This document shows positions 3,702 to 56,604 of a DNA stretch of 64,000 nucleotides, piece after piece (within the stretch, counting starts at the first letter, position 1; each line of letters starts with the position of its first letter). Location of the stretch: contig NZ_CP090059.1 in assembly GCF_021391395.1 (NCBI RefSeq), forward strand, positions 1,039,001-1,103,000, in the 5' to 3' direction. The position numbers were made by a program, and so were the translations under genes. The stretch is from Sphingomonas cannabina. Its GTDB lineage: Bacteria; Pseudomonadota; Alphaproteobacteria; Sphingomonadales; Sphingomonadaceae. A model generated the notes under the pieces. The model saw only the letters and a list, made by a program, of their open reading frames with translations, was not told where the DNA came from and made no database searches.

Positions 3702-4301
3702 ATGCGTCTGAACCTGACCTCGGACGAGATCGGCGGCGCGTGCGGGACTGCGCGTCTCGCCGAGGGCGACCCGCTGCCGCCGGAGAACCGCGTCGTTCGC
3801 GTCGTTCCCGAGCGTTCCCTCGATGACCTCTATCGCGCCGAGACGCCACGGCTGATGCGATTCTTCTCCAGCCGCTCGGGCGGTGATGATCCGCGCGACC
3901 TCGTCCACGAGACCTTCGAGCGGCTGGTACGCAAGGGTGCCGCCTTCTTGTCCGCGCTCGACCGGCCCGAGGCCTATCTCAGCCGGATAGCGATTAACCT
4001 CGTGCGCGATCGGGCCAAGTTTGCGGTCAGGCATCACGCCGCAGCACACGTCCGGGCCGACGACGCATCGCTCGCGACCGGCGACCCGCATGATCGCCTC
4101 GAGGCGCGGGACATGATCAAACGCCTCGAAACCGCTATGAAGCGCCTGCGTCCACTTACGCGGGAGATCTTCATGGCCTGTCGCCTCGACGGATACAGCT
4201 ATGCCGAAGTTGCGGAACGGACCGGCCTCAGCGTGCGCGCGGTCCGCAAGCAGATGAGCCGGGCCATCGCCGAAATCGACCGCGCGCTGAGCGAAGACTG
4301 A
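3702..4301 (+). CDS. FecI-type ECF sigma factor of the lasso locus
   Basis: A 199-aa product. Region 2 is visible around residues 40-100 (LMRFFSSRSG...DLVHETFERLVRK, then AYLSRIAINLVRDRAK) and region 4 around 145-195 (LRPLTREIFMACRLDGYSYAEVAERTGLS). It would direct RNA polymerase to the promoter of the downstream receptor and isopeptidase when the cognate FecR and receptor sense a ligand. Its stop overlaps the FecR start (TGATG), which implies translational coupling and equal stoichiometry. In known sphingomonad and Caulobacter lasso loci a FecI/FecR pair occupies this position, so the ligand is probably a lasso peptide. That last point is inference. Confidence 0.9.
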   Translation: MRLNLTSDEIGGACGTARLAEGDPLPPENRVVRVVPERSLDDLYRAETPRLMRFFSSRSGGDDPRDLVHETFERLVRKGAAFLSALDRPEAYLSRIAINLVRDRAKFAVRHHAAAHVRADDASLATGDPHDRLEARDMIKRLETAMKRLRPLTREIFMACRLDGYSYAEVAERTGLSVRAVRKQMSRAIAEIDRALSED

Positions 4302-5332
4302 TGGCGAACCTCGGCGGCGGCGCCAAGTCAGGCGAGGTTGCGCGCCGCGAAGCGCGCGATTGGGTGGTGCTGATCCATGACTCCGGTGCCGAGGTCGATT
4401 GGGCGGCGTTCGAGCGCTGGCGCGCCGCCGATCCGCGCCATGGCGAAGCGTACGAGCGGGCCGAGCGCGCCTGGAACCAGTCCGGCTTGCTAGCCGAGAC
4501 CAGCTTCGGACAGACGCGCAACCTGCCCGAGCGGCGCCACGGGCGGTTCGGCCGGCCGGTGGGGTATACGCTGGCGGCCGCGGCGGCGCTGGCCGTCCTC
4601 TTCATCGGGCTGGCGATCGCACGGCCGGAGATGCTGCAGGGCCTGACCGGTGCCGGGTCGAGCGAATTCAGCGCGCCGGTGGGCGCGATCCGCACGGTCG
4701 CGCTCGACGACGGCTCGACCGTGACCCTCGATTCCGACAGCGCGCTTCGCGTCGCATTCGGCGCCAGCGAACGGCGGCTCGAACTGCTCAAGGGGCGGGC
4801 GCGGTTCGATGTCGCGCATGAGGCGGACCGTCCGTTCATCGTGGCCGCGGGCGGCGGCGCGGTCATCGCGCGGGGAACCCTGTTCGATGTCGGCCTTCAC
4901 GACGGGCAAGTGACGGTGACCCTGTTGCGCGGCGCCGTCGAGGTCCGCAACGCGGAGGCGATGCGATCGGCCACGCCGTCGCCGTCCAAGGTCAGAACGC
5001 TCCGACCCCAGCAGACGATTGCCTTCGTCGCCGCGGCGCCGCTGCCCGTGCCGCAGGCGGCAGCCAAGGCAGACGCGCAATGGACCTCCGGCATGCTGAC
5101 GTTCGACGCGACGCGCCTCGCCGAGGCTGTCGCCGAGATCAACCGCTATAGCGGGACCAAGATCGTCCTCGCTGATCCTGCCATCGCCGAGCTCCGCATC
5201 ACCGGCGCCTATCGTGCCAGCGACACTGCCGGATTCGCGCGGACCGTTGCGCAGTCGCTGCGATTGCGGGTCACGCGAACCCGAGAAGGCAACCTGCTTC
5301 TTTCTGCCTCGCCGGCCGGCTCGCCCAGCTGA
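4301..5332 (+). CDS. FecR-type anti-sigma/sigma regulator
   Basis: A 343-aa inner-membrane protein. Residues 10-55 carry the FecR N-terminal cytoplasmic domain (REARDWVVLIHDSG, FERWRAADPRHGEAYERAERAW). One transmembrane helix lies near 88-108 (YTLAAAAALAVLFIGLAIA). A periplasmic FecR domain follows (VALDDGSTVTLDSDSALRVAF, GRARFDVAHEADRPFIV). The C-terminal part (AVAEINRYSGTKIVLADP) interacts with the signalling domain of TonB receptors in this family. It receives the signal from the STN domain of the next gene and releases or activates the ECF sigma factor. It overlaps the sigma gene by one base. Confidence 0.9.
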   Translation: MANLGGGAKSGEVARREARDWVVLIHDSGAEVDWAAFERWRAADPRHGEAYERAERAWNQSGLLAETSFGQTRNLPERRHGRFGRPVGYTLAAAAALAVLFIGLAIARPEMLQGLTGAGSSEFSAPVGAIRTVALDDGSTVTLDSDSALRVAFGASERRLELLKGRARFDVAHEADRPFIVAAGGGAVIARGTLFDVGLHDGQVTVTLLRGAVEVRNAEAMRSATPSPSKVRTLRPQQTIAFVAAAPLPVPQAAAKADAQWTSGMLTFDATRLAEAVAEINRYSGTKIVLADPAIAELRITGAYRASDTAGFARTVAQSLRLRVTRTREGNLLLSASPAGSPS

Positions 5333-5431: not shown

Positions 5432-7993
5432 ATGACGGTCCGACGATTTCTCGGGAGTATGTGCGGCGCCGCAGCGCTGGCGATGGCGGCGGCGCCCGCA
5501 CCCGCGCAGCAGGTGGCTGAACAGGCCTATGACCTTCCAGCACAGCCGCTTGGCGACGCGCTGCGCGCGGTGGCGGTCGCGTCCGGCACCAGCATCATCG
5601 CGCCAGCGGTGCTGGTGGCCGGCAAGACCGCGCCGGCGTTGTCGGGCCAATTCACGCCGGCGGTTGCGGTTGCACTGCTGCTGCGCGGCTCGGGCCTGCG
5701 AGCACGGCAGGTCGGCGGCGACCTGATCGTCGAGCAGGACTCCGCGGAGCAGGACGCCGATGCCAGCACCTCGGATATCCTGGTGACCGGCTCGCGCATC
5801 CGCGGTGCTGCGGTCGCGTCGCCAGTGATCGGCATCGATCGGGAGCAGGTTCGCGACGCAGGCCAGGCGACCCTCGGCGATGTCGTGCGTGCGATTCCGC
5901 AGAGCTTCGGCGGCGGGCAGAACCCGGGGATCGGCATGAACGTCCCCTCCGGGAGCGGTGTCGATGTCGGTGGCGGCTCGTCGGTCAACCTTCGCGGGCT
6001 CGGCAGCGACGCGTCGCTTACGCTGCTGAATGGCCGCCGGCTCGCCTATACGGCCGTCAAGCAGAGCGTAGACGTCTCCGCGATTCCGCTGAGCGCGATA
6101 GAGCGGATCGAAGTCGTGCCCGACGGTGCGTCGGCGATCTACGGCTCCGATGCTGTCGCCGGGGTGGCGAACATCCTCCTCCGGCGTGACTATGAGGGCG
6201 TGGAAGCCAGCGCGCGTGTCGCGGCGTCGACCGAAGGCGGCAATGTCGAGCAGCAATATGGCGCGCTCGCCGGCACGCGCTGGTCAGGCGGCGGGGCACT
6301 GGTCGCCTATCAATATGGCGACAACACCGCGATCCGTGCGCGCGATCGCTCCTATGCCGCGCGCCGCTCGCCCGGTCTCGACCTTTATCCGGCGATGCGC
6401 CAGCACAGTGCCATCGCGACCGCGCACCAGTCGCTCGGGTCTGGGCTCTCGTTCGAGATCGACGGCCTCTACAACATCCGCTGGAGTGACCTCACCTTTC
6501 CGACCACGCCGACCGGCGATCTTCACGAGGGGCGGGCGACCTTCTCGTCGGTGGACAAGGCCTTCGCGATCGCGCCGGCCTTTCGCCTGGAACTTGCGCA
6601 CGACTGGCAGGTCACGCTCAGCGGCAACTATGGAAAGGACCGCGTCGATTATCGGCAGGTCGAGTGTGCGCTCGATGCCTGCAGGGATTCGGGGCCGGGC
6701 TTCTATCGAAACACGGCACAGGGTTTCGAGCTCAGCGGCAGCGGCAAGCTGTTTGCGCTGCCGGGCGGCGCCGCGAAACTGGCGCTCGGCGGCGGCTATC
6801 GGTCGATCGGCTTCCGGCGCTATTCCGCCGCCAATGCCGCGATCAACACGGCGCATGCGCAGGAGAGCTATTACGGGTTCGGCGAGCTCAGTCTCCCGCT
6901 GATCGGGCCTGGCGAGCACGTGCCGTTCGTGCACCGCATCGATGCCAGCGCGGCGCTACGCTACGAGCGCTATCCCGGCATCGACGACGTCGTGACACCG
7001 AAGCTCGGCCTGATCTGGTCCGTCAGCCCGGATATCGACTTCAAGGCGAGCTGGGGCAAATCCTTCCGCACGCCGACGCTCTATCAGCAGTATCAGCCGC
7101 GGGCGGTCTATCTCTATCCGCCGGCGGCGCTGGGCGCCACCGGTGCGCCTCCGGGGTCGGGCGCGCTCCTCATCGTTGGAGGCAATCCCGACCTCAAGCC
7201 GGAGCGGGCGACGACCTGGTCGGCGACGCTCGCACTGCATCCGCGCGCCCTCCCCGGGGCACGTCTTGAGATCAGCTATTTCGACGTGGCCTATCACGAC
7301 CGCATCGTCGCGCCGATCACGCTTGGACGCGAGGCGTTGAGCAATCCGATCTATCGTGACCAGATCACCCTCGATCCGGGCGCGGAGGACCAGGCTGCGG
7401 TGATCGCCGGCGCCGGCACGTTCCTCAACCTGACCGGCACGCCCTATGACCCGGCGCATGTGATTGCGATCGTCGACAATGCGAACGTCAATGCAGGTCG
7501 TCAGACCGCGCGCGGGGTCGACGTGCTCGCCAGTTACAGCGCGTCGATCGCATCGAACCAGACGCTCACCGTCTCGGCCAACCTTGCCTATCTGGACAGC
7601 ACACAGCAGCTCAGTCCGGACCAGCCGGTCCTGCCGCTCGCCGGCGTGATCTTCAATCCGCCGCATTGGCGCGGCCGCGCGACCGCCGGATGGTCGGGCG
7701 GACCGCTGACGCTGACCGCGGCAGTCAATCATGTCGGTGGGGTGCGCGACGTGCGGTTCGATCCGGCGGTTTCGATCGACAGGATGACCACCTTCGACCT
7801 GACCGCGCGCTACCGGGTCGAGGCGATCACGCCGGTGTTCGACGGTCTCGACCTGACCCTTTCGGTCCAGAACCTGTTCAACGATGAACCCGATCCGATC
7901 GCGGTCTCGATTCCCTACGACACGCCCTATGATTCGACCAACTACTCGCCGGTCGGGCGGCTGGTCGCGTTCCAGGTGCGCGCGTCATGGTGA
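5432..7993 (+). CDS. TonB-dependent receptor with STN signalling domain (lasso locus)
   Basis: An 853-aa outer-membrane protein. A signal peptide is present (cleavage near AAAPAPAQQ). The STN domain spans about residues 30-105 (YDLPAQPLGDALRAVAVASGTSI, VALLLRGSGL). The TonB-box-like region ILVTGSRIRG precedes the plug (VNLRGLGSDASLTLLNGRRL, RIEVVPDGASAIYGSDAVAGVANI). The remainder is beta-barrel, ending in an aromatic residue (VRASW). The STN domain marks a transducer that signals through FecR to the ECF sigma factor. The gene overlaps the isopeptidase start by seven bases, so import and cleavage are co-translated. The likely cargo is the matured lasso peptide made by the opposite arm; a related foreign lasso peptide is possible. 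Confidence 0.93.
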   Translation: MTVRRFLGSMCGAAALAMAAAPAPAQQVAEQAYDLPAQPLGDALRAVAVASGTSIIAPAVLVAGKTAPALSGQFTPAVAVALLLRGSGLRARQVGGDLIVEQDSAEQDADASTSDILVTGSRIRGAAVASPVIGIDREQVRDAGQATLGDVVRAIPQSFGGGQNPGIGMNVPSGSGVDVGGGSSVNLRGLGSDASLTLLNGRRLAYTAVKQSVDVSAIPLSAIERIEVVPDGASAIYGSDAVAGVANILLRRDYEGVEASARVAASTEGGNVEQQYGALAGTRWSGGGALVAYQYGDNTAIRARDRSYAARRSPGLDLYPAMRQHSAIATAHQSLGSGLSFEIDGLYNIRWSDLTFPTTPTGDLHEGRATFSSVDKAFAIAPAFRLELAHDWQVTLSGNYGKDRVDYRQVECALDACRDSGPGFYRNTAQGFELSGSGKLFALPGGAAKLALGGGYRSIGFRRYSAANAAINTAHAQESYYGFGELSLPLIGPGEHVPFVHRIDASAALRYERYPGIDDVVTPKLGLIWSVSPDIDFKASWGKSFRTPTLYQQYQPRAVYLYPPAALGATGAPPGSGALLIVGGNPDLKPERATTWSATLALHPRALPGARLEISYFDVAYHDRIVAPITLGREALSNPIYRDQITLDPGAEDQAAVIAGAGTFLNLTGTPYDPAHVIAIVDNANVNAGRQTARGVDVLASYSASIASNQTLTVSANLAYLDSTQQLSPDQPVLPLAGVIFNPPHWRGRATAGWSGGPLTLTAAVNHVGGVRDVRFDPAVSIDRMTTFDLTARYRVEAITPVFDGLDLTLSVQNLFNDEPDPIAVSIPYDTPYDSTNYSPVGRLVAFQVRASW

Positions 7994-10140
7994 GGGGGGC
8001 TTTCGCGTTGCTGGCGCCGCTCGCCGCCACCACGGCTCCGACCGCCGCCAGCGCGGCGTGTACGGGGATTCTTCCCGTCGCGACGGAGCAGTCGCAGCCG
8101 GCGCGTGCGATCTCCACGCGCGATCTTATCGAGATGCGCGAGATCGGCAGCCCCGACTCGGCCTCGTTCGCCAGCCCCAGCCCCTTTGCCGTATCGCCCG
8201 ACGGGACGCGTGTCGCGTACGTCGTCAACCAGGCGAACCTCGCCGCCAACGGCTATTGCCGCGCGCTGGTGGTGAGCGTCATTCGCGGCGCGGCGCCGCC
8301 GCGCGCGGTCGACCGCGGCGGCGAGCTCATCAAGCTGGTCGACGTCCAGCAGGGGTTCTACCTGCCGGCCGGCGCCACTGCGGTGGTCGTGCCGGTGTGG
8401 TCACCCGATGGGCGGAGCCTCGCCTATCTGCGCCGCGACGCCGGCCGGACCCGGGCCTGGGTGGCCGCGGCGGACGGGAGCAGCGCCCGTCCGGTTTCGC
8501 AGGCGGAGGTCGACGTGGTCGCGGTTGCGTGGAGCGGCGATGGCACGCGCCTGATCTATGGCACGCAGAAGGATCAGGCGGCGCTTGAGCGTGCGATCGA
8601 CGCGGAAGGCCAGCGGGGATGGCTGTACGACGAGCGCGTCACTCCTGAAATCTCGGCGCGACCGCGGCTGCGCGCCACCGACGCGCGCGATGTCTTCGCG
8701 GCCGACCTTGCGACTGGGCAGGTCCGCCCGGCTCAGCCGGAGGACGATGCGCGCCTCAGGAGCGCGCCGCCGTCCAGCTGGATGGTCGATCCTGCATCGA
8801 CCGCGCCCGATGGTCGCCGCGCGTGGGTCGAGCGTGACGCTGCCTCGCCGATGGCACCATCTGTCCTGATGGCGGCCGGGCTGGCGGGTACGACGATCCG
8901 CTGCGGCAGCGCATCATGCTCGAACGGTATCCTCTCGATCTGGTGGGACCAAGGCGCAGTGCTGTTCCTGCGCAGGGAGGGCTGGAACAAGGGAACGATG
9001 GCGCTCTATCGCTGGAAACCGGGGCCTAAGGAGCCGGTCGCGGTGCTGCGCACCGAGGACGTGCTCCATGGCTGCGTCATGGCGCCGCGCGAGCTCGTCT
9101 GTACGCGCGAGAACAGCCGGACCCCGCGCCGCGTGGTCGCGATCGACGTCAGGAGCGGGGCTGGCCGCGAGCTGTTCGACCCCAATCCGGAGTTCGCTGG
9201 CATCCGCCTCGGGCAGGTGCGGCGTCTTGAGTGGCGCAATGCCTATGGTCTTGAAGCATGGGGCGATCTGGTGCTGCCGCCAGATTATCGGCCCGGAACG
9301 CGCCTGCCGATGGTTGTCGTCCAGTACCATAGCGACGGCTTCCTGCGCGGAGGGACCGGCGACGAATATCCGATCTTCCTGCTGGCGGAGCGCGGCTTCG
9401 CCGTGCTCAGCGTCGAGCGGGTGCCGTTCTTTGCGTCCGCCTTTCCGGACCTCAAGAGCTGGGATGCGATCATTGCCGTCAATCAGAAGGACTGGTCGGA
9501 GCGCCGCAGCCTGCTGTCCTCCGTCCTCACCGGCGTGAGATTGGCGATTGACCAGGGCTATGCCGATCTCAGGCGGGTCGGCATCACCGGGCTCAGCGAT
9601 GGGGCGAGCACGGTCGCCTTCGCTCTGATCCATTCGGGAGTGTTCGCGGCGGCCGCGATGAGCACCTGCTGCACCGAGCCCAACACCACGATGACCTATG
9701 GCGGGATCGCCTGGGCGGACTGGCTGAGGAGCATCGGCTACCCTTCGGCGACCAGCGACGACCGCGCGTTCTGGCGCGATATGTCGCTCGCCCAGAATGC
9801 GGCGAGGATCGACACGCCATTGCTGATGCAGCTCTCGGATGTCGAGTTCCGGCTTGGGCTCGAGGCGTTCAGTGCGCTGCGTGAGCAGGGCAAGCCCGTC
9901 GAGATGTACGTCTTCCCCGACGAGGCGCACACCAAATGGCAGCCGGTGCATCGCCGCGCGGTGTACGAGCGCAATTTGGACTGGTTCTCGTTCTGGCTGC
10001 AGGGGCGGGAAGATGCCGGCTCGGCGAAAGGGGAGCAATATGCGCGCTGGCGCAGGATGCGGGAGGCGGCTCGCCAGCGACCCGAAGCTGCCGCTAATCC
10101 TGCGCGCGAGCCCAGGCCTCAGCGTCGACCAGTTCCATGA
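7987..10140 (+). CDS. Lasso peptide isopeptidase (S9 prolyl-oligopeptidase family, AtxE-like)
   Basis: A 717-aa exported protein (Ala-rich signal peptide ending near ASAAC). An N-terminal beta-propeller region (FAVSPDGTRVAYV, WSPDGRSLAYLRR) precedes an alpha/beta-hydrolase domain. The predicted triad is Ser537 (in GLSDGAS), Asp618 (SDVEFRLG) and His648 (DEAHTKW). Isopeptidases of this family hydrolyse the macrolactam bond of the cognate lasso peptide to a linear peptide. The position directly after an STN-type receptor and beside lasso A/B/C genes is the hallmark of such enzymes, so I prefer this over a generic dipeptidyl peptidase. Its 3' end overlaps the convergent cyclase gene by 47 bp. 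Confidence 0.88.
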   Translation: MVRGAFALLAPLAATTAPTAASAACTGILPVATEQSQPARAISTRDLIEMREIGSPDSASFASPSPFAVSPDGTRVAYVVNQANLAANGYCRALVVSVIRGAAPPRAVDRGGELIKLVDVQQGFYLPAGATAVVVPVWSPDGRSLAYLRRDAGRTRAWVAAADGSSARPVSQAEVDVVAVAWSGDGTRLIYGTQKDQAALERAIDAEGQRGWLYDERVTPEISARPRLRATDARDVFAADLATGQVRPAQPEDDARLRSAPPSSWMVDPASTAPDGRRAWVERDAASPMAPSVLMAAGLAGTTIRCGSASCSNGILSIWWDQGAVLFLRREGWNKGTMALYRWKPGPKEPVAVLRTEDVLHGCVMAPRELVCTRENSRTPRRVVAIDVRSGAGRELFDPNPEFAGIRLGQVRRLEWRNAYGLEAWGDLVLPPDYRPGTRLPMVVVQYHSDGFLRGGTGDEYPIFLLAERGFAVLSVERVPFFASAFPDLKSWDAIIAVNQKDWSERRSLLSSVLTGVRLAIDQGYADLRRVGITGLSDGASTVAFALIHSGVFAAAAMSTCCTEPNTTMTYGGIAWADWLRSIGYPSATSDDRAFWRDMSLAQNAARIDTPLLMQLSDVEFRLGLEAFSALREQGKPVEMYVFPDEAHTKWQPVHRRAVYERNLDWFSFWLQGREDAGSAKGEQYARWRRMREAARQRPEAAANPAREPRPQRRPVP

Positions 10141-11839
10141 TCCGCACGAAGCCGAAGTCGCGGGTCGGCCCGCTATGATCCAGCGCATCGGCGACGGCGC
10201 GCCTGTCAAGGAGTCCCGCTTCGGCCAGCGCGCCGCCGAGCAGCATGTTCCGGATGACAGACCGGTTCTGCTCGAAGATCGCCGCGACGAAGCCGGTCGG
10301 TGCCCCCTTGGAGCGGCGGTCGATGATTGCGGGTGGAAGGCTGGTCTCGAAGGCCCGGCGTGCCGCCGCGCGGTTTCGGCCTGGGGCGATCCATGACCAG
10401 CTCGGGACGCGCAGGCACGTTTCGACGACCGGTTGGCTGACCAGGGGAGACATTGACGGATAGCGCGCCTGCGCCTGCAATGCCTCGACGAGGTTCTGCG
10501 CCGGCGCCAGCAGGGCGATATGGCTGGCGCGTCCCGGCAGCACGCCTGGCGGCGGCGCGAACCAGGGGTGGCGCTCACGCGCCAACGCGGCTGCCTTGGC
10601 ATCCGCGGACAGGAAGGCGAGGTTCGGCGCGAGATGGGGCGGACGTGAGCGAAACCAGGCGCGCGCAATCGTCCTACGCAGCAAGGTCGCCGTTCCCGTT
10701 TGGGCGAGGTCGCCGAGCGCGCGCGCCGCGATCCAGAAGCGTTGATCGAAGCCGCTCGTGAGCAGGCAATCGGCGAGAATGCTGACGCTGCGCAAGCCGA
10801 AGAACACATTGTCGCCGCCGCCGCCGTCGACGATCAACTCGGCGCCCCGGGCTTCGGCCACTTCGATCGCGATGTCGTCGAGCGCCTGAGTGAAGCAGCG
10901 ATGCACCGGGTAGGGCATCTCCGCGGCGCCGGAACGGCGAACGTCGATCTTGTCCAGCGCGAAGCGGCGGCACTCGAGGTCGATTCCGAGGGATTGGGCA
11001 GCCAGGCTCGCGTAGCGCCACTCGTCGCTTGCGGCGTCATTCGCGATCAGATTGAGACCGCTGAAATCGGCATTTGCCTCGGCGAGCACCGCCGCGACGA
11101 TCGCAGAATCGAGGCCGCCCGAAAGCAGGAGCAGGCATGTCCTGTTCCTTGTCCGTGCCCTGACGGAGAGCTGTATCGCATCACACACGCGCCGGGCAGC
11201 GTCGTGCGGATCGTCGATCTGCAGCTCCTCGGCAACGAACCGCCAAGGCGACCAGATCGCCCGCGGCGTGATCCCGTCAGGTGTGATCCGCAGGCTGTCG
11301 CCGCCGCGCAGCTCCGACACCTCGCTGAGACAGGTCTCGTGCGAACGCCATTCGGGATAGGCGATGTGGCGTGCGAGAGCCGGGACATCGAGGCGGCGTT
11401 CAACATTGGCGATCGCGCACAGCAGCGGGAGATCGGACGCGACGAGCAGGGCAGCGCCGGAGCGAAGGTAATAGCAGCCGAGGTCGCCGAAGGGCGCGCG
11501 CACCAGGGTTGTTGCACCGCTGGAATTGATGACGACGGCGACATAGGCACCCCAGTAGGCCTCGACGAGCGTTTCGCCGCACGAGCGTTCGATGGCGATC
11601 GATGTGTCGGGACCCAACGACCGGCACGGTTTCGCCTCACCGCGCGCGAAGATCTCTCCGACGATGGCCGCACCCGGCAACCTGAGGCAGCTCTCCGGAC
11701 GATCGCTGAACAGAAGGACGCCGCCGGCGCCGAAAACGAGCGAGAACGATGCTGGAAGCGCCGCTTCGATCCCGGTTCTCGCCGGTTCTGCCTGCGCAGA
11801 TCCGCCCGGGAAGATCGCGGCGGCGTAGCGGGTGCGCAT
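10094..11839 (-). CDS. Lasso peptide macrolactam synthetase (C protein)
   Basis: A 581-aa asparagine-synthetase-like protein. The N-terminal half resembles the class II glutamine amidotransferase domain but the mature N-terminus is MRTRYAAAIF, with no Cys at position 2. This fits a lasso cyclase that does not use glutamine. The PP-loop SGGLDSA is at residues 240-246, and GGGGDNVFFG supplies the second ATP-site motif. In the family it adenylates the ring Asp/Glu side chain and closes it on Gly1. The start ATG overlaps the B-protein stop (TGATG), giving translational coupling. The other asparagine synthetase in the window (54094-56604) keeps Cys2 and is clearly different. Confidence 0.93.
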   Translation of the reverse strand: MRTRYAAAIFPGGSAQAEPARTGIEAALPASFSLVFGAGGVLLFSDRPESCLRLPGAAIVGEIFARGEAKPCRSLGPDTSIAIERSCGETLVEAYWGAYVAVVINSSGATTLVRAPFGDLGCYYLRSGAALLVASDLPLLCAIANVERRLDVPALARHIAYPEWRSHETCLSEVSELRGGDSLRITPDGITPRAIWSPWRFVAEELQIDDPHDAARRVCDAIQLSVRARTRNRTCLLLLSGGLDSAIVAAVLAEANADFSGLNLIANDAASDEWRYASLAAQSLGIDLECRRFALDKIDVRRSGAAEMPYPVHRCFTQALDDIAIEVAEARGAELIVDGGGGDNVFFGLRSVSILADCLLTSGFDQRFWIAARALGDLAQTGTATLLRRTIARAWFRSRPPHLAPNLAFLSADAKAAALARERHPWFAPPPGVLPGRASHIALLAPAQNLVEALQAQARYPSMSPLVSQPVVETCLRVPSWSWIAPGRNRAAARRAFETSLPPAIIDRRSKGAPTGFVAAIFEQNRSVIRNMLLGGALAEAGLLDRRAVADALDHSGPTRDFGFVRIMELVDAEAWARAQD

Positions 11840-12504
11840 CAGATCACCAGGATCGGCGTGAACATGCGGACCATGTCGAACCGGTCGTTCACCAGGTAGC
11901 CCTCGCGCTGGACCCAGCAATGGGCATTGAACGGCCCTAGCCGGACGCCGATGACCACGTTCGTCGATACGCCTTGCCTGAGCAGCCGTCCGGACACCGC
12001 GACCGATCGGGTCAGGCAATTGTCGAGGGCGCTGACGATGCCTTCCGCGCCTCGGAATGCAGCGACCGTCCGAAGCAGCCGCTTCGATACCTCCGCCTCA
12101 CCGGGCTCACGGAGCTTTGCCTTGCCGCGGCCGATCGCTGCCAGAGACCGGCGAAGACCCAGCAACTTCAATCGCGTGCGGCTGCTCGCGAGGCTGCCCA
12201 GCGCCGCCAATATCGACGGCGTGCTGACATGCGGGAGCGGCGCATCGAGCAGGCTCGCTTCGGGAACTTGCGGAGGCGTGCACGGTGCGAGCGGCGCGCA
12301 TCCCGGCTGCTCGGTCAGGATGCCGCTACGGCGCAGGGGTATAAGGTCGGACGAAACATCGCCGTGACCGCGTTCGACCAGCCGGGCGAAGCTTCTTTCG
12401 ATCGGCTCGGACAGGCAGAAGTAACGGTCGGCGGAAAGGTCGAGAAAGACCAGGCGATCGTCGGCACGGCAGAAGGAGACGCCGGGGCGAAGGCCAAAGG
12501 ACAT
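11839..12504 (-). CDS. Lasso peptide maturation protease (B protein, RRE fused to transglutaminase-like domain)
   Basis: A 221-aa protein combining both B functions. Residues 1-75 form a PqqD-like RiPP recognition element (FCRADDRLVFLDLSADRYFCL) that would bind the leader peptide. Residues 85-221 are the transglutaminase-like cysteine protease (lasso B2) with a predicted triad of Cys163 (DNCLTRS), His195 (NAHCWV) and Asp207 (LVNDRF). It removes the leader so that Gly1 can be cyclised. The single-chain form is typical of proteobacterial clusters. No obvious ribosome site precedes the ATG, and a strong palindrome lies just upstream, so expression probably depends on read-through from the precursor gene. 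Confidence 0.92.
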   Translation of the reverse strand: MSFGLRPGVSFCRADDRLVFLDLSADRYFCLSEPIERSFARLVERGHGDVSSDLIPLRRSGILTEQPGCAPLAPCTPPQVPEASLLDAPLPHVSTPSILAALGSLASSRTRLKLLGLRRSLAAIGRGKAKLREPGEAEVSKRLLRTVAAFRGAEGIVSALDNCLTRSVAVSGRLLRQGVSTNVVIGVRLGPFNAHCWVQREGYLVNDRFDMVRMFTPILVI

Positions 12505-12554: not shown

Positions 12555-12674
12555 TCAGTCGTTGGCAAGGCCGAACGGCTCCTGGCCGTTCCGGAGGTCG
12601 ATCGGCAGGCCCACGCTGCCCTTGGTTTCGATGCTCGCGGTGCCGAGCTCGATCACATCATCTTCGCGTTCCAT
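12555..12674 (-). CDS. Lasso peptide precursor (A)
   Basis: A 39-aa product. The leader is MEREDDVIELGTASIETK, with the Thr at the penultimate leader position that the maturation enzymes require. Cleavage after Lys18 gives a 21-residue core: ring segment GSVGLPID and tail LRNGQEPFGLAND. Gly1 and Asp8 would close an eight-residue macrolactam. The alternative acceptor Glu14 would give an impossibly large ring. The ring size, core length and acidic C-terminus with FGL resemble sphingonodin-type lasso peptides as I remember them. A ribosome site (AGGAG) lies eight bases before the ATG. No ABC exporter gene is present, as is usual for clusters that carry an isopeptidase. Confidence 0.93.
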   Translation of the reverse strand: MEREDDVIELGTASIETKGSVGLPIDLRNGQEPFGLAND

Positions 12675-12785: not shown

Positions 12786-13397
12786 TCAGGTCCCGACGGA
12801 TTTATGAAGAATCCGAGCGATCTCCATCAACGAACGTTGCCGACGCCGATGGTAACTCAGGACAAGTCGACGCAACTCTGAGGCAATTCCGCGCGCCAGT
12901 GCGGCTTCGATTTCGGAGATTTCCTTGTGCCAATCTTTGAACAGGAGCGACTCGCACATGCGAGCCGCGTAAAGGCGATCATTGACCGAGCTGATCTCTC
13001 GTTGAAACTCCGAATTGCCGGTGCATGATCCGATATAAGCGAAGGCGGTGCCGACGCGTTCGCCTGCCTCGGCGGGTAAGCCATCGGAGCCCGGTATTCC
13101 TGCGGCAGCCGTATTCCATTTCCTGAGCGCCAGCAGCAGAATTTGACCGCTCCAGGCGTAGAGATCGCGCAGCGCTGGCGTGTCGAGTTGCGCGACATGG
13201 AAGCCGTCGCCAGCCCGCGTCTCGATCAGGCGCTCGCCGGCGAGAAGGTGAAGCGCGTCGCGAACGGGGGTGGCGCTGCTGCTCAGCTGCTGCGCCAGCG
13301 CCGCTGCATCGATCCGTTCTCCTGGCCGATAGATACCGGACAGGATCCGCCGCTTGACTGCATCATAGACGCGTTCGGCGGTTGCTCCGGAGTTCAT
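12786..13397 (-). CDS. GntR-family transcriptional regulator
   Basis: A 203-aa protein. The N-terminal winged helix is clear (VYDAVKRRILSGIYRPGERI, LAQQLSSSATPVRDALHLLAGERLI). The C-terminal half is helical and resembles an FCD-type effector domain, though short. It would bind a small effector and control the operon that follows. Its ATG overlaps the stop of the dioxygenase gene (ATGA), so it is co-translated with the quorum-sensing genes. The nearest downstream gene is the lasso precursor, which makes it the prime candidate for lasso regulation (inference). Confidence 0.85.
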   Translation of the reverse strand: MNSGATAERVYDAVKRRILSGIYRPGERIDAAALAQQLSSSATPVRDALHLLAGERLIETRAGDGFHVAQLDTPALRDLYAWSGQILLLALRKWNTAAAGIPGSDGLPAEAGERVGTAFAYIGSCTGNSEFQREISSVNDRLYAARMCESLLFKDWHKEISEIEAALARGIASELRRLVLSYHRRRQRSLMEIARILHKSVGT

Positions 13398-14269
13398 CGG
13401 ACATCAGCCTGTTCTTCGGCGTAGGCATTGATCATTGCCTGCTGGTCGGGTCGCAGTGCATCCACGGCGGCAAGCGGCTCGCCGGCATAGTCACCGAGCA
13501 GCACCGACGGGCATTGTCCCTCGAAATTCCCGAGATTGGGACGATGCTGACGGTAGCCGGCGAGGGCGGCAAGCTCAGGTGACAAGCGCCGGGCGACCTC
13601 CGGCGGATAGGCGAGCCAGGGGTTTTCATAAGGTTTGAGCCAGCCCAGCGAGTAGCCGACCACGACTCCTCGGCGAACTTCACCGCTCTCGTTCGCTCCT
13701 GCGCTGTGCAGGGTCGATCCGAGGAACACGACTGCCGATCCGGGCGCCATCTCGGCAGCGACCGGCGCGCGGTCAGGTTCGGGCAGAAGCGCCTGCGCTC
13801 CGTGGCTACGCGGCCAGATCCGTGTCGCGCCGTTCTCGGCGCGAAACGGCGTGAGCGGCCAGATCACGTTGACCAGATATTCGATCTCGCCCTTGGGGGC
13901 TGCCCACATGTCTTGGTCCCGGTGCGGAAACTGCGCGGGCGCACCAGGATGGACGGCGATCGCCTGTGTCGTGTTGAGTTGGATGCAATCGCACCAGGGA
14001 CTGAGGATCGCCTCGGTGATGCCGAGAATGACAGAATGCTGGACGAGCGCAGCGGCGTGGGCGGATCGCGCCAGCAGCCGTCCAAACCTTTTGGTGGTCG
14101 CGCCATAGAAGCCGCCCTTGCAGAACGGCGTACGTTCGAAGGTCTCGGCAAGGTCGGCATCTAGCGCGGCGATCGTTGCCGGCGGCAGCGCATCGGGGAT
14201 GATGCACCAGCCCTCGCACCGGAGCTCGGTGCACCATGCGGCGACGATATCGTCGTGGGCGTTGGTCAT
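13394..14269 (-). CDS. Phytanoyl-CoA dioxygenase (PhyH)-like Fe(II)/2-oxoglutarate oxygenase
   Basis: A 291-aa protein. The iron ligands are visible as HRD (in FPHRDQDMW) and a distal His (STLHSAG); the Arg of EVRRGVVVGY would bind 2-oxoglutarate. The start at 14269 has AGAGGG six bases upstream. An ATG at 14287 that overlaps the luxI stop is an alternative and would add six residues. A PhyH-like gene directly after luxI is a recurring arrangement in sphingomonads as I recall. It may oxidise the acyl chain of the signal, but that is inference. Coupling: luxI stop just upstream, GntR start overlapping downstream. Confidence 0.85.
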   Translation of the reverse strand: MTNAHDDIVAAWCTELRCEGWCIIPDALPPATIAALDADLAETFERTPFCKGGFYGATTKRFGRLLARSAHAAALVQHSVILGITEAILSPWCDCIQLNTTQAIAVHPGAPAQFPHRDQDMWAAPKGEIEYLVNVIWPLTPFRAENGATRIWPRSHGAQALLPEPDRAPVAAEMAPGSAVVFLGSTLHSAGANESGEVRRGVVVGYSLGWLKPYENPWLAYPPEVARRLSPELAALAGYRQHRPNLGNFEGQCPSVLLGDYAGEPLAAVDALRPDQQAMINAYAEEQADVR

Positions 14270-14286
14270 GTTCGGCCCTCTGCGCA

Positions 14287-14907
14287 TCAGGCGGCGGCGC
14301 GACCGGCGCCGGCGAAGAGCATAGGCCGCGCGACAATGCCGGCGGCAGCGAGAAGGCCAGGCGTTTCGGCGGTGATCTCAATGTCGAGCGCGATGAGCGT
14401 TGCGCCGCCAGTCATCTGTGGCAGGCCGAGCGGCCGGCATCGCCAGCCGAACGTGAGAATCTGCTGGAACCAGCCCATCTCGGCGATCGCGGTGTAGCGG
14501 GCGATACCGTTGGCGAACGCATGATCGGCAAGCGCCATCACCAGCGTGTCGCGCACGGCGCGGCGCTCGGATGCCCGCAAGCCGCGGTCGAGGCAGAACC
14601 GACTCACTTCCCATATGTCTCCCCCGCGCGGAGGCGTGACGGAGCACAGGTGATCGTAGAGGCTGTCGAGGAGGTGTGGTCGGGTGGTCGGCAGCAACCG
14701 TGCCGAACCGAGATGACCACCCCGGTGATCGGTGAGCACCAGATAGCAGGCGTGCTCGTCGTCGAATTGGTCAATTTCATATCTGCCGTCGAGGACCGGC
14801 ACGTCCCACTTCAGCAGATCGACGAATACACGCTTGCGCGCGGCGAACATTGCACGAAGCACGCCGTCCGGCGTGGGCTGCGCATCGAACTGAAGCACAT
14901 GCAGCAT
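14287..14907 (-). CDS. LuxI-family acyl-homoserine-lactone synthase
   Basis: A 206-aa protein with the conserved LuxI positions: RKRVFVDLLKW near residues 24-34, EIDQFDDEH near 44-52, GSARLLPT near 63-70, and WEVSRFCLD near 99. It joins an acyl chain from acyl-ACP to S-adenosylmethionine to make the diffusible AHL signal. A GGGAG ribosome site lies about 11 bases before the ATG. It follows luxR by 78 bp on the same strand and precedes the dioxygenase with overlapping or near-overlapping codons. I could not identify a convincing lux box in the short gap. Confidence 0.93.
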   Translation of the reverse strand: MLHVLQFDAQPTPDGVLRAMFAARKRVFVDLLKWDVPVLDGRYEIDQFDDEHACYLVLTDHRGGHLGSARLLPTTRPHLLDSLYDHLCSVTPPRGGDIWEVSRFCLDRGLRASERRAVRDTLVMALADHAFANGIARYTAIAEMGWFQQILTFGWRCRPLGLPQMTGGATLIALDIEITAETPGLLAAAGIVARPMLFAGAGRAAA

Positions 14908-14985: not shown

Positions 14986-15735
14986 TCAGCGGCCGAAAAT
15001 ATCGCTGAAGGTGATCGTTCCGTCGAACAGGACCCGGGCGATCAGCGATGTCCGCTTGCTCAGATCGTAACGCTCGCACGCCATCTTGACGTGCCGGGCA
15101 ACTGTTTCCTCGCTGACGCCCAGGATGCGGCTGATCTCCCAGTCGCCCTTGCCGCGCGCCGCCCACAGCACGCATTCGCGTTGCCGGTCGGTGAGCGCGG
15201 GCGGCGGCGGTATCGGCAGATGCCCACGCGTGGTCCACAGGCGCCGCGCGGCTTCGAACGCGAAGGCACCGGCAAGCTGCGCAACCGGCAGCATGTCCTG
15301 CGGCATTGGCTGGTTCGCTTCGTTGGCGAACGAGCAGGAGCCGCGGGCCTCGCCGGGCACATGCGCCGGCACGGTGAAGCCGTCGCCGATTCCCTCCTCG
15401 CGCCCAAGCGCGAGAACGCGTCGGTCCTTGGCGGTCAGTGGAATCATCTGAGGCATGCGCGACCAGCAGAAGCCAACGCTGGTCACATGGCTGGCACGGT
15501 GGACAGGATCGGAGACGCCCAGCGCCTGCCGGTCATAATAGTCGGCCCACCGTGCCGGATAGTTGTGGATGCGGATGGCATTGCCCACCGCGGCGACATC
15601 GACGTGGTGGCTAAGCGCGAAATATTGAAAGCCCAGCCGCGCCGCCACGATCGCCATCGCGGCCGTCATGTCGTCGACGCTGCGGACCCCCTCGACGATG
15701 CGGATGAGCTGCATCGCCGTCAGATGTATGTCCAT
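14986..15735 (-). CDS. LuxR-family AHL-responsive regulator
   Basis: A 249-aa protein. The autoinducer-binding domain occupies residues 15-165 and keeps the usual ligand contacts (WADYY, SDPVHRA, WSR). The C-terminal HTH domain reads LTDRQRECVLWAARGKGDWEIS...TVARHVKMACERY. With the adjacent luxI it forms a complete quorum-sensing pair, expected to activate transcription when AHL accumulates. It is transcribed away from the FseA-like gene across a 250-bp divergent region, so it could control both directions. The ATG is preceded only by a weak ribosome site. Confidence 0.92.
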   Translation of the reverse strand: MDIHLTAMQLIRIVEGVRSVDDMTAAMAIVAARLGFQYFALSHHVDVAAVGNAIRIHNYPARWADYYDRQALGVSDPVHRASHVTSVGFCWSRMPQMIPLTAKDRRVLALGREEGIGDGFTVPAHVPGEARGSCSFANEANQPMPQDMLPVAQLAGAFAFEAARRLWTTRGHLPIPPPPALTDRQRECVLWAARGKGDWEISRILGVSEETVARHVKMACERYDLSKRTSLIARVLFDGTITFSDIFGR

Positions 15736-15986
15736 CGGCTCGCATGCCGACCGCAGGCGGTGTCTCAGGCCGCCGGGGATCCCGCGATCGCCCTTATCGC
15801 TGCGTGCCGACCGAACGGCGGTTTCTCACGCTGCCGTCCGGCGACTCATGTCACGAAATCAACATATCATAGCTGGCTAGCGAAAAGAAACCGGCGGCAG
15901 AGCCTGCTATACGGTGATTGCCGGTTGCTACGCCACGGATCGCGCCCTGGCGCGAAGTCCCGCTGCTTCGCGGCACGGAACAGGTA

Positions 15987-16788
15987 GTGATCTCGCCGTC
16001 TGATAAGGGGACGCCCGATTGGCGCGATCCCGCGGACTACGCGCGCCTCGCTCGTATCGATCGAGCCGGACTTATGTGGGAATGGCTGCGCCGCGATCCG
16101 GACTATATCGCTTGGCATGCTCGCGCGAGCGTCGCGACGCGCGGTGTATCCGGCATCGGTCCCGATCCTTCGCGATGGGGCCTTCACTTTCGCTGAGGAG
16201 CCGGCTCGCCACGCCCCCGAGGCGCGTATTATTTGGCGTGCCGATCTCGATCCGGGCACGCTCGATGTGGTGGTCGTTTCTGCCGATTGCGCCGATTCGG
16301 ATCACGTTATGCTGGAGGAGCTTGCGCCTTGGCTCACGGTCGTGGCCGGTCCCGACGGGCGGGAGCACGCTGTTCTCTCGGACGGTTGGCATCACATCCG
16401 CCTAGACGTCGAAACGGGGAGCCTCGCCCGGGGTGGGCGGGTCCTCCTCCTCTATCGACTGCAAGGCTTGGTCAGTGCTCGCCCGCGGTTGCTGCCGCTG
16501 AGGCGCTTCCTCGACCTTGTCGAGCATCACCGCTTTGCCGCCTCGCTGTTTCCGCGCGATCCATACATTGCTCGTTGGCTGGTGTTATTGCGCGTCCACG
16601 ATGCGCTCGCAGCGGGCGCGAGCCAACGCGAGATCGCCGAGGTCCTGCTCGGTGCCGGACATGTCGGCGATTGGAAAAGTCGATCGGATTGGGTGCGCTC
16701 GCGCGTGCGGCGGTTAGTACGCGGTGCGGGAGCAATGGCGCGAGGCGGCTATCGCTCGCTAATGCGGCATGGTCGGACTTCGCGATAA
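15987..16788 (+). CDS. FseA-like regulator encoded in two frames (DUF6499-type N-part joined by +1 shift to DUF2285 part)
   Basis: The first frame (to a TGA at 16194-16196) has DWRDPADYARL, GLMWEWLRRDPDYIAWHA and ends RWGLHFR. The second frame continues AEEPARHAPEARIIWRADLDP and runs to 16788 as a DUF2285 protein (residues DVVVVSAD, RLLPLRRFLDLVEHHRF, QREIAEVLLGAGHVGDW). Reading TTT, skipping C16191 and resuming at GCT gives one continuous 266-aa protein with the normal domain order. In Mesorhizobium ICEMlSymR7A, msi172 and msi171 are fused in the same way to make FseA, an activator of excisionase transcription. The first-frame start is uncertain: GTG 15987 is chosen because it begins just before the conserved part; TTG 15918 is possible. 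The second frame has its own ATG at 16117. A simple mutation remains the alternative. Confidence 0.72.
16185..16196 (+). promoter_or_regulatory. Putative +1 programmed ribosomal frameshift site (TTT-C ... TGA)
   Basis: Codons are CAC TTT CGC TGA in the first frame. A tRNA-Phe on TTT can move one base to TTC, a better match to its GAA anticodon, and then read GCT GAG GAG. Slippage of tRNA-Phe from UUU to UUC is the mechanism established for FseA. The in-frame stop two codons later limits the unshifted product. Confidence 0.65.
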
Positions 16789-23792: not shown

Positions 23793-25603
23793 ATGAAGAT
23801 CACCGCAGGCGCGATCGTGGCGCTGGGCGCGGCTTGCACGCCCGCGATGGCGCAAACCTCGACCGCCGATGCCGATGACACGATCGTCGTGACCGGCACG
23901 CGCGAACGCTCGCGCACCCAGTTCGACACCCTCGCCCCCGTCGACGTGCTGTCGGCGGATGGCGTGCGCTCCAGCGTGTCGGGCGATATGTCCGATACGC
24001 TCGCCTAGCTGCTTTCCCTCGTTCAACGTCCAGCGCCTGCCCGCGGCGGACGGCCAGGCGTTCGTGCGCCCGGCAACGCCGCGCGGGCTGTCGGCGGATC
24101 AGACGCTCGTGCTCGTGAACGGCAAGCGCTATCATCGTTCGGCGCTGCTCGGCACGCGCAGCGCGCATGCGCCCGACCTCGCGAGCATCCCGTCGCTGGC
24201 GATCAAGCGGATCGAGGTGCTGCGCGACGGCGCCTCGGCGCAATATGGATCGGATGTGATCGCCGGCGTGATCAACATCACCCCCGACCAGCCGGCATGG
24301 ACGCGTTCGGCCAGTTTTCCCAGTAAGGAATATCAGGCGGGAGCCCGCGGAGGTATCGCGCCCGGCGACCGCGGCAGCATCGTCTTAACCGGCGAGTACG
24401 ACAAGTCCGAAGCGACCTCGCGTACGCGCCAGCGGCCGGACGCGATCGCCTTCCAGGCCGCCAACCCGACCATCGCAGTGCTCAATCCCGTGCAGCGCTG
24501 GGGACAGCCCGACGAGGAGCGCATCCGCGGCGCCATCGACGCGCGCTACCGGCTCGACGATGTCGCGACGCTCTACCTGTTCAGCACCGCCCAGTCGGCC
24601 GATGGCGTGACCGACTTCAACTGGCGCAACCCCGCCGGCACGGCCAACGTCTACAACTCCAGCAGCGCCTTTCCGGGCTTCTCGTTCAGAACGCTCTATC
24701 CAGCCGGGTTCACGCCGCGCTTCGGCACCGAATTCAGCGACTATCAGGCGGATACGGGCGTGCGCGGCGAGCTCGGCGAGCGCTTCCGTTACGACGTGAG
24801 CGTCGGCCTCGGCCGGAGCCGGATCGACTATACCATGCGCGAGAGCCTCAACGCCTCGCTGAATGCCGCGGCATTCGAGGCGAATCCGCAGCTGCGGCTG
24901 GTGCTGCTGACGCATCTCAGCCACCGCACCGGCTTGGTTCTGCCGGTGCGCGAGATTGCGGCGCTAGCGCGTGCCCGCGGCATCGACGCGATCGTCGACG
25001 CGGCGCACAGCTGGGGGGCAGCTCGACATGACGCTCGCCGATCTCGATTGCGATTTCGTCGGCATCAACTGCCACAATGGCTTGGCGCGCCGCTCGGCGT
25101 CGGGGCGATCCATATCCGCAGGCGTGCGCTGAGCCGTATCGACCGCGATCCCGCCGAGTCGGCAAACGGTCGCGACGGCGTGCAGGCCCGCGTCCATACC
25201 GGCACAGCCGATTTCGCCGCGATCCTCACCGTCCCGGATGCGCTCGCCTTTCAGCAGGCGATCGGCCGCACGCGCCGCGCGGCGCGGCTGCGGGCATTAC
25301 GCGACCGTTGGGTTTCCGCCGTCCGTCCCCTGCCTGGTATCGAGATACTCACGCCCGATGAGCCCGATCTGCACGGCGGCATCACCGCGTTCCGCCTGTG
25401 TGGCCTCACCAGCGTCGGGGACAATGCGGCGCTGTCCGCCCGGCTCCTCGACCGCCACCGCATCTTCACCGTGCATCGCGATGGCCCCGCTAAGGGAGCC
25501 TGCGTGCGCGTGACCCCGGCTTTATTCAAATATGGATGCTCTGGCGCGCGCGCTCGCGGTCGAAGTGGGGCCGATTTCAGCCGTCAATGCGGAGCGGCGA
25601 TAG
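23793..25603 (+). pseudogene. Hybrid pseudogene: TonB-dependent receptor 5' part joined to class V aminotransferase 3' part
   Basis: The 5' part encodes a signal peptide (MKITAGAIVALGAACTPAMA), IVVTGTRERS and a TonB plug (LVNGKRYHRSALLGTR, IEVLRDGASAQYGSDVIAGVINI) plus barrel strands. It carries a TAG stop at 24006 and a one-base shift just after it. Around 24860-24895 the protein changes abruptly to an isopenicillin-N-epimerase-like class V aminotransferase (LVLLTHLSHRTG, IDAIVDAAHSWG). That half has an extra G in the G-run at about 25012-25019 and a lost base at about 25077, inside the codon for the PLP-binding Lys (CHK-WLGAPLGVG). A last shift near 25530 precedes ALARALAVEVG and the final stop. 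Receptor and aminotransferase were probably neighbours that fused by deletion and then decayed. Confidence 0.85.
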
Positions 25604-25628
25604 AGCGCTCCATCCATGCGCGCGCGTT

Positions 25629-54093: not shown

Positions 54094-56604
<2,511 letters not shown>

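Follow-up and report, generated by a model that had tools for sequence, protein, structure and literature searches.

A frameshifted fseA-like gene beside quorum-sensing and lasso peptide genes in a sphingomonad, with an ICE excision gene as its candidate target

In a stretch of 64,000 nucleotides of a sphingomonad chromosome (hereafter the window), a gene divided over two reading frames lies next to a luxR/luxI pair and a lasso peptide cluster, which raises the questions of whether it is a genuine fseA with programmed +1 frameshifting and of which genes its product would act on. A preliminary description had proposed that the gene was freed from a mobile element and now acts on the neighbouring lasso genes. 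The features concerned are as follows (positions in the window).

3702..4301, plus strand: ECF-type sigma factor
4301..5332, plus strand: FecR-like anti-sigma regulator
5432..7993, plus strand: TonB-dependent receptor
7987..10140, plus strand: S9 peptidase (PF00326), probable lasso isopeptidase, judging by the type of cluster
10094..12019, minus strand: lasC, asparagine-synthetase-like lasso cyclase (PF00733), 181-nt overlap with lasB
11839..12504, minus strand: lasB, transglutaminase-like leader peptidase (PF13471)
12555..12674, minus strand: lasA, lasso precursor, predicted core GSVGLPIDLRNGQEPFGLAND, ring Gly1-Asp8
12786..13397, minus strand: GntR-family regulator, 4-nt overlap with phyH
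13394..14287, minus strand: phyH dioxygenase, 1-nt overlap with luxI
14287..14907, minus strand: luxI, AHL synthase (PF00765)
14986..15735, minus strand: luxR (PF03472 and PF00196)
15748..15858, minus strand: luxR leader, two predicted hairpins, each with a TGAG loop, on either side of a Shine-Dalgarno-like stretch; the leader stops 12 nt short of the luxR ATG
15987..16788, plus strand: fseA-like gene, whole, with GTG start (our choice of start codon), +1 shift at C16191, stop at 16786-16788 and a fused product of 266 aa
15987..16196, plus strand: 0-frame part of the gene with DUF6499 (PF20109), ending in TGA
16188..16191, plus strand: slip site TTT C
16192..16788, plus strand: +1-frame part with the DUF2285/RovC DNA-binding domain (PF10074)

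The 0 frame of the fseA-like gene runs from GTG 15987 to CTT CAC TTT CGC TGA, with its stop at 16194-16196; if C16191 is skipped, the frame continues as GCT GAG to the stop at 16786-16788. The exact slip, by tRNA-Phe, has reportedly been shown for FseA. The N-terminal domain of FseA was found in the 0 frame as PF20109, which we take to be the former DUF6499 (E = 6e-16, scanned as 15918-16196), and the C-terminal domain, DUF2285, in the +1 frame as PF10074 (E = 7.5e-18); as the preliminary description had stated, the two stand on one protein only if one base is skipped at TTT-C. Residues 196-257 of the fused product matched RovC (PDB 6xz5; E = 1.6e-4), the sole PDB match up to E = 10. RovC of Yersinia shares the DUF2285-type DNA-binding domain with the window protein but is distant, activates a secretion system and has no frameshift described in the accessible text on it. 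The sequence MWEWLRRD of the window protein resembles the AWEFLRRN motif given in the accessible portion of PMC10359603.

Conservation of the shift was assessed with a protein search of 151 genomes of the genus, which gave matches in 62, and with a scan of named genomes, which gave 20 loci in Sphingomonas, Sphingobium, Novosphingobium, Sandaracinobacter, Sandaracinobacteroides and Stakelama. Regions were taken for the stronger and some of the weaker matches (weaker genomes without fetched regions include G012, G048, G052, G059, G062, G075, G079, G095, G106, G120, G129, G130 and G143), and a program that allows for frameshifts was used to align the query with 64 homologous loci. Of these, 56 called for a net forward shift between query residues 40 and 80 (55 at +1, one at +2), while eight showed none, two of them (L143 and L144) with a -1 step elsewhere. 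In 53 of the 56 shifted loci the first +1 codon is immediately preceded by TTTC, in two by TTTT, and in L150 the site is displaced; none of the eight unshifted loci has TTT at the aligned position, and the conservation of TTTC that the preliminary description had suggested checking was thus borne out. L103 and L105, which were lost to an overlap filter and stand outside the 64-locus count, both shift by +1 at TTTC. The count also leaves out four weak matches with no DUF2285 match at 1e-6 (L154, L158, L160 and L161) and two more distant copies from the genome that contains the window, L001 (aligned site TTTT, with shifts placed elsewhere) and L002 (no shift). Conservation did not extend to the stop codon: the TGA two codons past the slip is a feature of the window copy, as described, but of 38 distinct homologues, selected because they have the site, only that copy and L037, L042 and L043 show it, the others having 10 to 393 codons between slip and stop. 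The accessible text of PMC10359603 reports 4709 FseA homologues, about 61% of them with a conserved +1 site. Because homologues of the window gene share a conserved +1 site between the two domains, and because the published family has such a site, the window gene is, as judged from sequence, a genuine fseA and belongs to a known family that uses programmed +1 frameshifting.

Among homologues the slip site lies in the context TGG GGG NTN CAC TTT C, and the Gly codon before it is GGG in 47 of the 55 frameshifted homologues with Gly there, as against 254 of 1138 at other Gly codons of the same genes (Fisher p = 7.5e-22, with kinship ignored). On account of this excess, the G run appears to be selected as nucleotides, and it suggests a Shine-Dalgarno-like stimulator; the window fseA has GGC at this codon.

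As had been described, luxR and luxI are divergent from fseA in the window and lie beside lasso genes. The genes luxR-luxI-phyH-gntR-lasA-lasB-lasC are all on the minus strand, and luxR to lasC are likely to form a single transcript. Comparison of 36 loci placed LuxR, LuxI, PhyH, GntR, lasB, lasC, the S9 peptidase and the TonB receptor at near-constant distances upstream of fseA, and ArdC, DUF2958, ParB, DUF736, S26/TraF, SLT and DUF3363 were found downstream of fseA in many relatives. Among 63 loci (L094, a second copy of L045, is in the 64-locus set and was dropped here), 55 had the forward shift, 53 luxR or luxI, 44 lasso genes, 39 at least one of these seven ICE families and 32 at least three. 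For the 43 closest loci, the corresponding counts were 43 for the forward shift, 42 for luxR/luxI, 32 for lasso genes within 13 kb, and 33 and 26 for at least one and at least three of the seven ICE families within 15 kb; the sole close homologue without luxR/luxI sits at a contig start. All of these counts, from which L103 and L105 are excluded, are lower bounds, since some loci reach the end of a contig and flanks extended over 10 kb. In six of the 43 close homologues (the window, L044, L047, L048, L054 and L102), luxR/luxI-fseA is accompanied by none of the seven ICE families despite about 10 kb on each side. A LuxI search of the same 151 genomes gave matches in 46, and its best places adjoin the fseA matches; a search of a plasmid collection gave partial matches in two records only. 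No LuxR binding site could be named from the list of 20-bp palindromes or from the alignment of the luxR-fseA intergenic region.

Several loci depart from this arrangement. L162, L163 and L164 have the block of lasso genes, gntR, phyH, luxI and luxR with no fseA match in 20 kb, and L098 has tandem fseA-like genes at 10930 and 12068, one frameshifted and one single-frame. In the window itself, a second lasC-like (asparagine-synthetase-like) match lies at 55486 (minus strand), an ARAGORN tRNA-Leu call at 8728-8810 (plus strand) falls inside the S9 peptidase ORF and is probably false, and an ORF at 23959-25662 (plus strand), which may be a fusion product of decayed genes, encodes a TonB plug domain and, after it, a domain of class-V aminotransferases.

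The lasso cluster has, by sequence, a precursor with Thr at position -2, B and C enzymes, and a ring acid at core position 7-9; its product is a predicted one. Precursor candidates were found in 41 of the 45 loci with gntR and lasB/lasC (three had none and one was spurious), and 29 of the 41 were compared, the other 12 being copies or more distant types. In these 29, the last 11 leader residues are on average 71% identical, compared with 21% for the 13 core residues after Gly1, and core position 8 is acidic in every one of them; in the precursors of L147, L148 and L149, outside the 29, the acid is at position 9. A hypervariable core behind a conserved leader peptide would fit diversifying selection on the lasso peptide.

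Within the luxR-fseA intergenic region, approximately 110 bp next to luxR are conserved and can be drawn on the luxR strand as two hairpins 61 nt apart that flank GAAAGG. In an alignment of 22 rows, anchored on the fixed spacing of 61 (other spacings, three near-identical rows, two spurious rows and one truncated row were left out), 24 pairs were recognised, 13 of them with two-sided changes, and 90.9% of cells were paired as compared with 29-55% in slid controls. Cells with two-sided changes numbered 56, against a mean of 17.2 in shuffled alignments and at most 10 when slid; the count of pair types was a weak measure, reached by 23 of 500 shuffles. A covariance model of the leader matched 36 of 72 sources at E < 1e-8, 11 of which were neither training rows nor near-copies, and under stricter filters gave 23 matches in 21 of the 151 whole genomes; 22 of the 23 have an fseA-like gene no more than 3 kb away, and the remaining one adjoins broken luxI pieces (G045). 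Searches of the window, L038, L041 and L089 against Rfam gave no match that reached the gathering threshold; two weak Rfam matches at 15.6-17.1 kb, neither on the leader, were judged to be chance. The Shine-Dalgarno-like stretch precedes the second hairpin and is brought by it close to the start of luxR, so that changes to this hairpin could set luxR translation. The dyads may instead be DNA operators for LuxR or another regulator, a reading that we hold to be the less probable one, though it deserves weight: the arms of palindromic operators also change symmetrically, a spacing of exactly 61 bp had served to define the dyads, and folding of three single luxR-strand sequences was weak (z from -0.44 to -1.82). 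However, across the 22 rows the TGAG loop core shows little or no change, unlike the arms, the outer 10-pair helix covaries as well, G-U pairs are present, and GAAAGG lies between the hairpins.

In ICEMlSymR7A, rdfS is the first gene of an operon that also contains traF and is located upstream of the relaxase gene (accessible part of PMC11963761), and the site bound by FseA before rdfS is a pair of inverted hexamers, 28 bp in total with 15-16 bp between them (accessible part of PMC10359603). The genome studied here has HTH_17 genes directly 5′ of traF at 957,868 and 3,652,007, the rdfS order described for ICEMlSymR7A in that portion of PMC11963761, and the promoters of both share GTCG-N20-CGAC, the two repeats being located at 958,138 and 3,652,273. 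The repeat GTCG-N19 to N21-CGAC was found in 29 of 32 rdfS-like promoters (all except those of L096, L152 and L157), compared with 6.4% of random 235-nt stretches from the same loci with the same three spacings. It agrees with the FseA box, as given in the accessible text of PMC10359603, in its total length of 28 bp and its spacer of 15-16 bp, a likeness of geometry only. A weight matrix was built from 20 distinct 28-bp boxes with spacing 20 only; one training box (L140), with a score of -7.5, probably matched by chance. Over 244 kb of chromosome (899,001-1,143,000), the matrix gave one strong box, at 958,138 before rdfS (42.7 bits; the next scored 7.0), and over 3,590,000-3,709,999 again one strong box (34.8 bits). 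Both were training members, and what is new is therefore the absence of others and the score of 33.0 for the L096 promoter, which was outside the training set. The box at 958,138 lies 97 kb from fseA and is taken to belong to the same element. Elsewhere in the genome, two DUF2285 matches (L001 and L005, G000:C1:3809008-3810441) lie beside an HTH_17 gene, possibly a QseM-like/FseA-like pair in a third element.

The window contains no match to PF00589 (tyrosine integrase) or to HTH_17 (rdfS-type), in agreement with the earlier remark that no integrase or excisionase is in view. ICE genes do lie on the same stretch of chromosome: T4SS-type genes at 929-941 kb (one ORF, at 934.5-937.1 kb, has a CagE_TrbE_VirB match, and the others were named by match to a second ICE), a DUF3363 protein at 950-952 kb (503 bits, with a relaxase-domain match below the Pfam cut-off), SLT, traF and DUF736 at 956-959 kb, with rdfS-traF at 957-958 kb, and parB and ardC at 995-998 kb, these last broken over several frames. 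The relaxase match and 10 of 11 T4SS-region matches are free of stops. The fseA-lasso block starts at 1,042.7 kb; it is open, lies 44 kb from the broken ardC/parB, and is inverted relative to the ICE genes when compared with a second copy at 3,659-3,673 kb, which inversion or separate insertion would explain; no ends of the element were found. The nearest PF00589 matches are at 696,155 and 1,954,968, with no tyrosine integrase found in the interval, and an integrase, relaxase, T4SS and intact accessory genes do not occur together in one unit of the carrier. This carrier ICE is probably rearranged and decaying. The second copy of the quorum-lasso-fseA block belongs to a more complete ICE at 3.61-3.67 Mb, which has an integrase beside a tRNA-Gln gene. 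No parB match was found in 20 kb around this copy, and no second copy of the tRNA-Gln 3′ end was found in the genome; one 16-base direct repeat was considered as an end of this ICE and judged to be chance.

We regard as the best explanation, and as a probable one, that the window gene is a genuine fseA, driven by AHL and gated by the slip, which acts on the rdfS boxes of sphingomonad ICEs from a rearranged, decaying carrier. LuxI would make AHL, and LuxR with AHL would switch on both the divergent fseA and the run from luxR to lasC, as the gene order and the control of fseA by TraR in Mesorhizobium suggest. A minority of ribosomes would slip one base at TTT-C to give full FseA, which, by analogy with the published box, would bind the GTCG-N19/20-CGAC inverted repeat before rdfS-traF and turn on the excision and transfer genes of the ICE. 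Because rdfS-traF, the relaxase and the T4SS parts lie 97-126 kb from fseA, the window FseA would act at a distance on the rdfS at 958,138, and possibly in trans on the second ICE. As the interval from 696 to 1,955 kb yielded no tyrosine integrase, the carrier may have lost the ability to excise, and its FseA may have little to do. We consider it rather unlikely that the gene is a relic, with an open frameshift gene and no working output; the broken parB and ardC and the distance of fseA from the nearest PF00589 matches (approximately 0.36 Mb and 0.90 Mb) agree with such a state, whereas the reading frames, the slip site, the luxR leader and a strong rdfS box have all been retained, and a second ICE with an rdfS box is present in the same cell.

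A domesticated regulator that controls the neighbouring lasso genes by FseA binding, as the preliminary description had it, is improbable. The lasso genes do adjoin fseA, an fseA-like gene stays beside gntR-lasso genes in L147, L148, L149 and L159 with no luxR/luxI match, so that the lasso partner persists without the quorum genes, and among weaker extra boxes in three relatives (L098 at 11,651, between its two fseA copies, 17.6 bits; L090 at 16,426, 14.0 bits; L104 at 16,055, 10.1 bits) that of L090 lies near the 3′ end of lasC. However, the weight matrix found no repeat scoring at least 4 in the 64-kb window, and the GTCG-N18, N19 and N21-CGAC variants at 3.5-17.5 kb all fall inside coding genes; the best candidate target of the window FseA would thus be the element's own excision gene rather than the lasso genes. 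Moreover, because the block borders ICE genes in most close relatives, and since a decayed ICE lies on the same chromosome stretch, the block is not a domesticated remnant, and the domestication model loses to the simpler one of an ICE switch block in a rearranged element. The preliminary description therefore stands as to an FseA-like +1 frameshift gene by luxR/luxI and lasso genes, and finds no support as to a gene that was freed and acts on the latter. Finally, a sequencing error or pseudogene, which one gene in two frames might suggest and for which the extra C would have to be an artefact, is refuted by the identical shift and TTTC in tens of other genomes and has next to no probability.

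The arrangement resembles ICEMlSymR7A of Mesorhizobium japonicum, which, in the accessible portions of PMC10359603 and PMC11963761, has a DUF6499-DUF2285 product made by +1 frameshifting (FseA, msi172-msi171), LuxR-type quorum control, and an rdfS-traF operon with a 27-28 bp inverted repeat upstream and the relaxase further on. Unlike ICEMlSymR7A, the window has fseA divergent from luxR-luxI, which are followed on their own strand by phyH, gntR and the lasso cluster, a two-hairpin luxR leader and a rearranged carrier ICE, and a DUF2285 search of the genome gave no lone DUF2285 (QseM-like) gene near it. The sphingomonad luxR-luxI-phyH "topology T" likewise has luxI followed by phyH, with virB genes and mobile elements nearby, but has double luxR genes, and the main text of that paper, in its accessible part, mentions neither DUF2285 nor asparagine synthetase (PMC4288048). 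The sphingocin cluster of Sphingomonas BPH shares the leader type (LIDLG...ETK|G), the C-terminal GLSDD and the B and C genes, while luxR, homoserine lactone and the word mobile do not occur in the accessible main text of its paper (PMC11006600).

Frameshifted FseA, quorum control of ICE transfer, sphingomonad luxI-phyH and lasso clusters were thus already known, and a search of one library of open-licence papers found no description of a lasso cluster that regularly accompanies the luxR-luxI-fseA block in sphingomonad ICEs. In several sphingomonad genera, lasso genes recur within the block of conjugative elements that holds their quorum and frameshift control, a new setting for a known frameshift in which one quorum module would serve both the transfer of the element and a variable peptide. 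The block provides a candidate regulator for lasso clusters of this type, its luxR leader may be an RNA switch, and a joint decision on element transfer and a variable secreted peptide is now testable. More speculatively, and with the odds against it, a sphingomonad ICE family may have built a lasso system into its quorum switch, such that one AHL circuit, with luxR gated by a new RNA leader, drives both FseA-gated transfer and a hypervariable peptide with its own importer and isopeptidase; if so, each element type would have a private peptide for kin recognition, for killing non-carriers, or for mate signalling.
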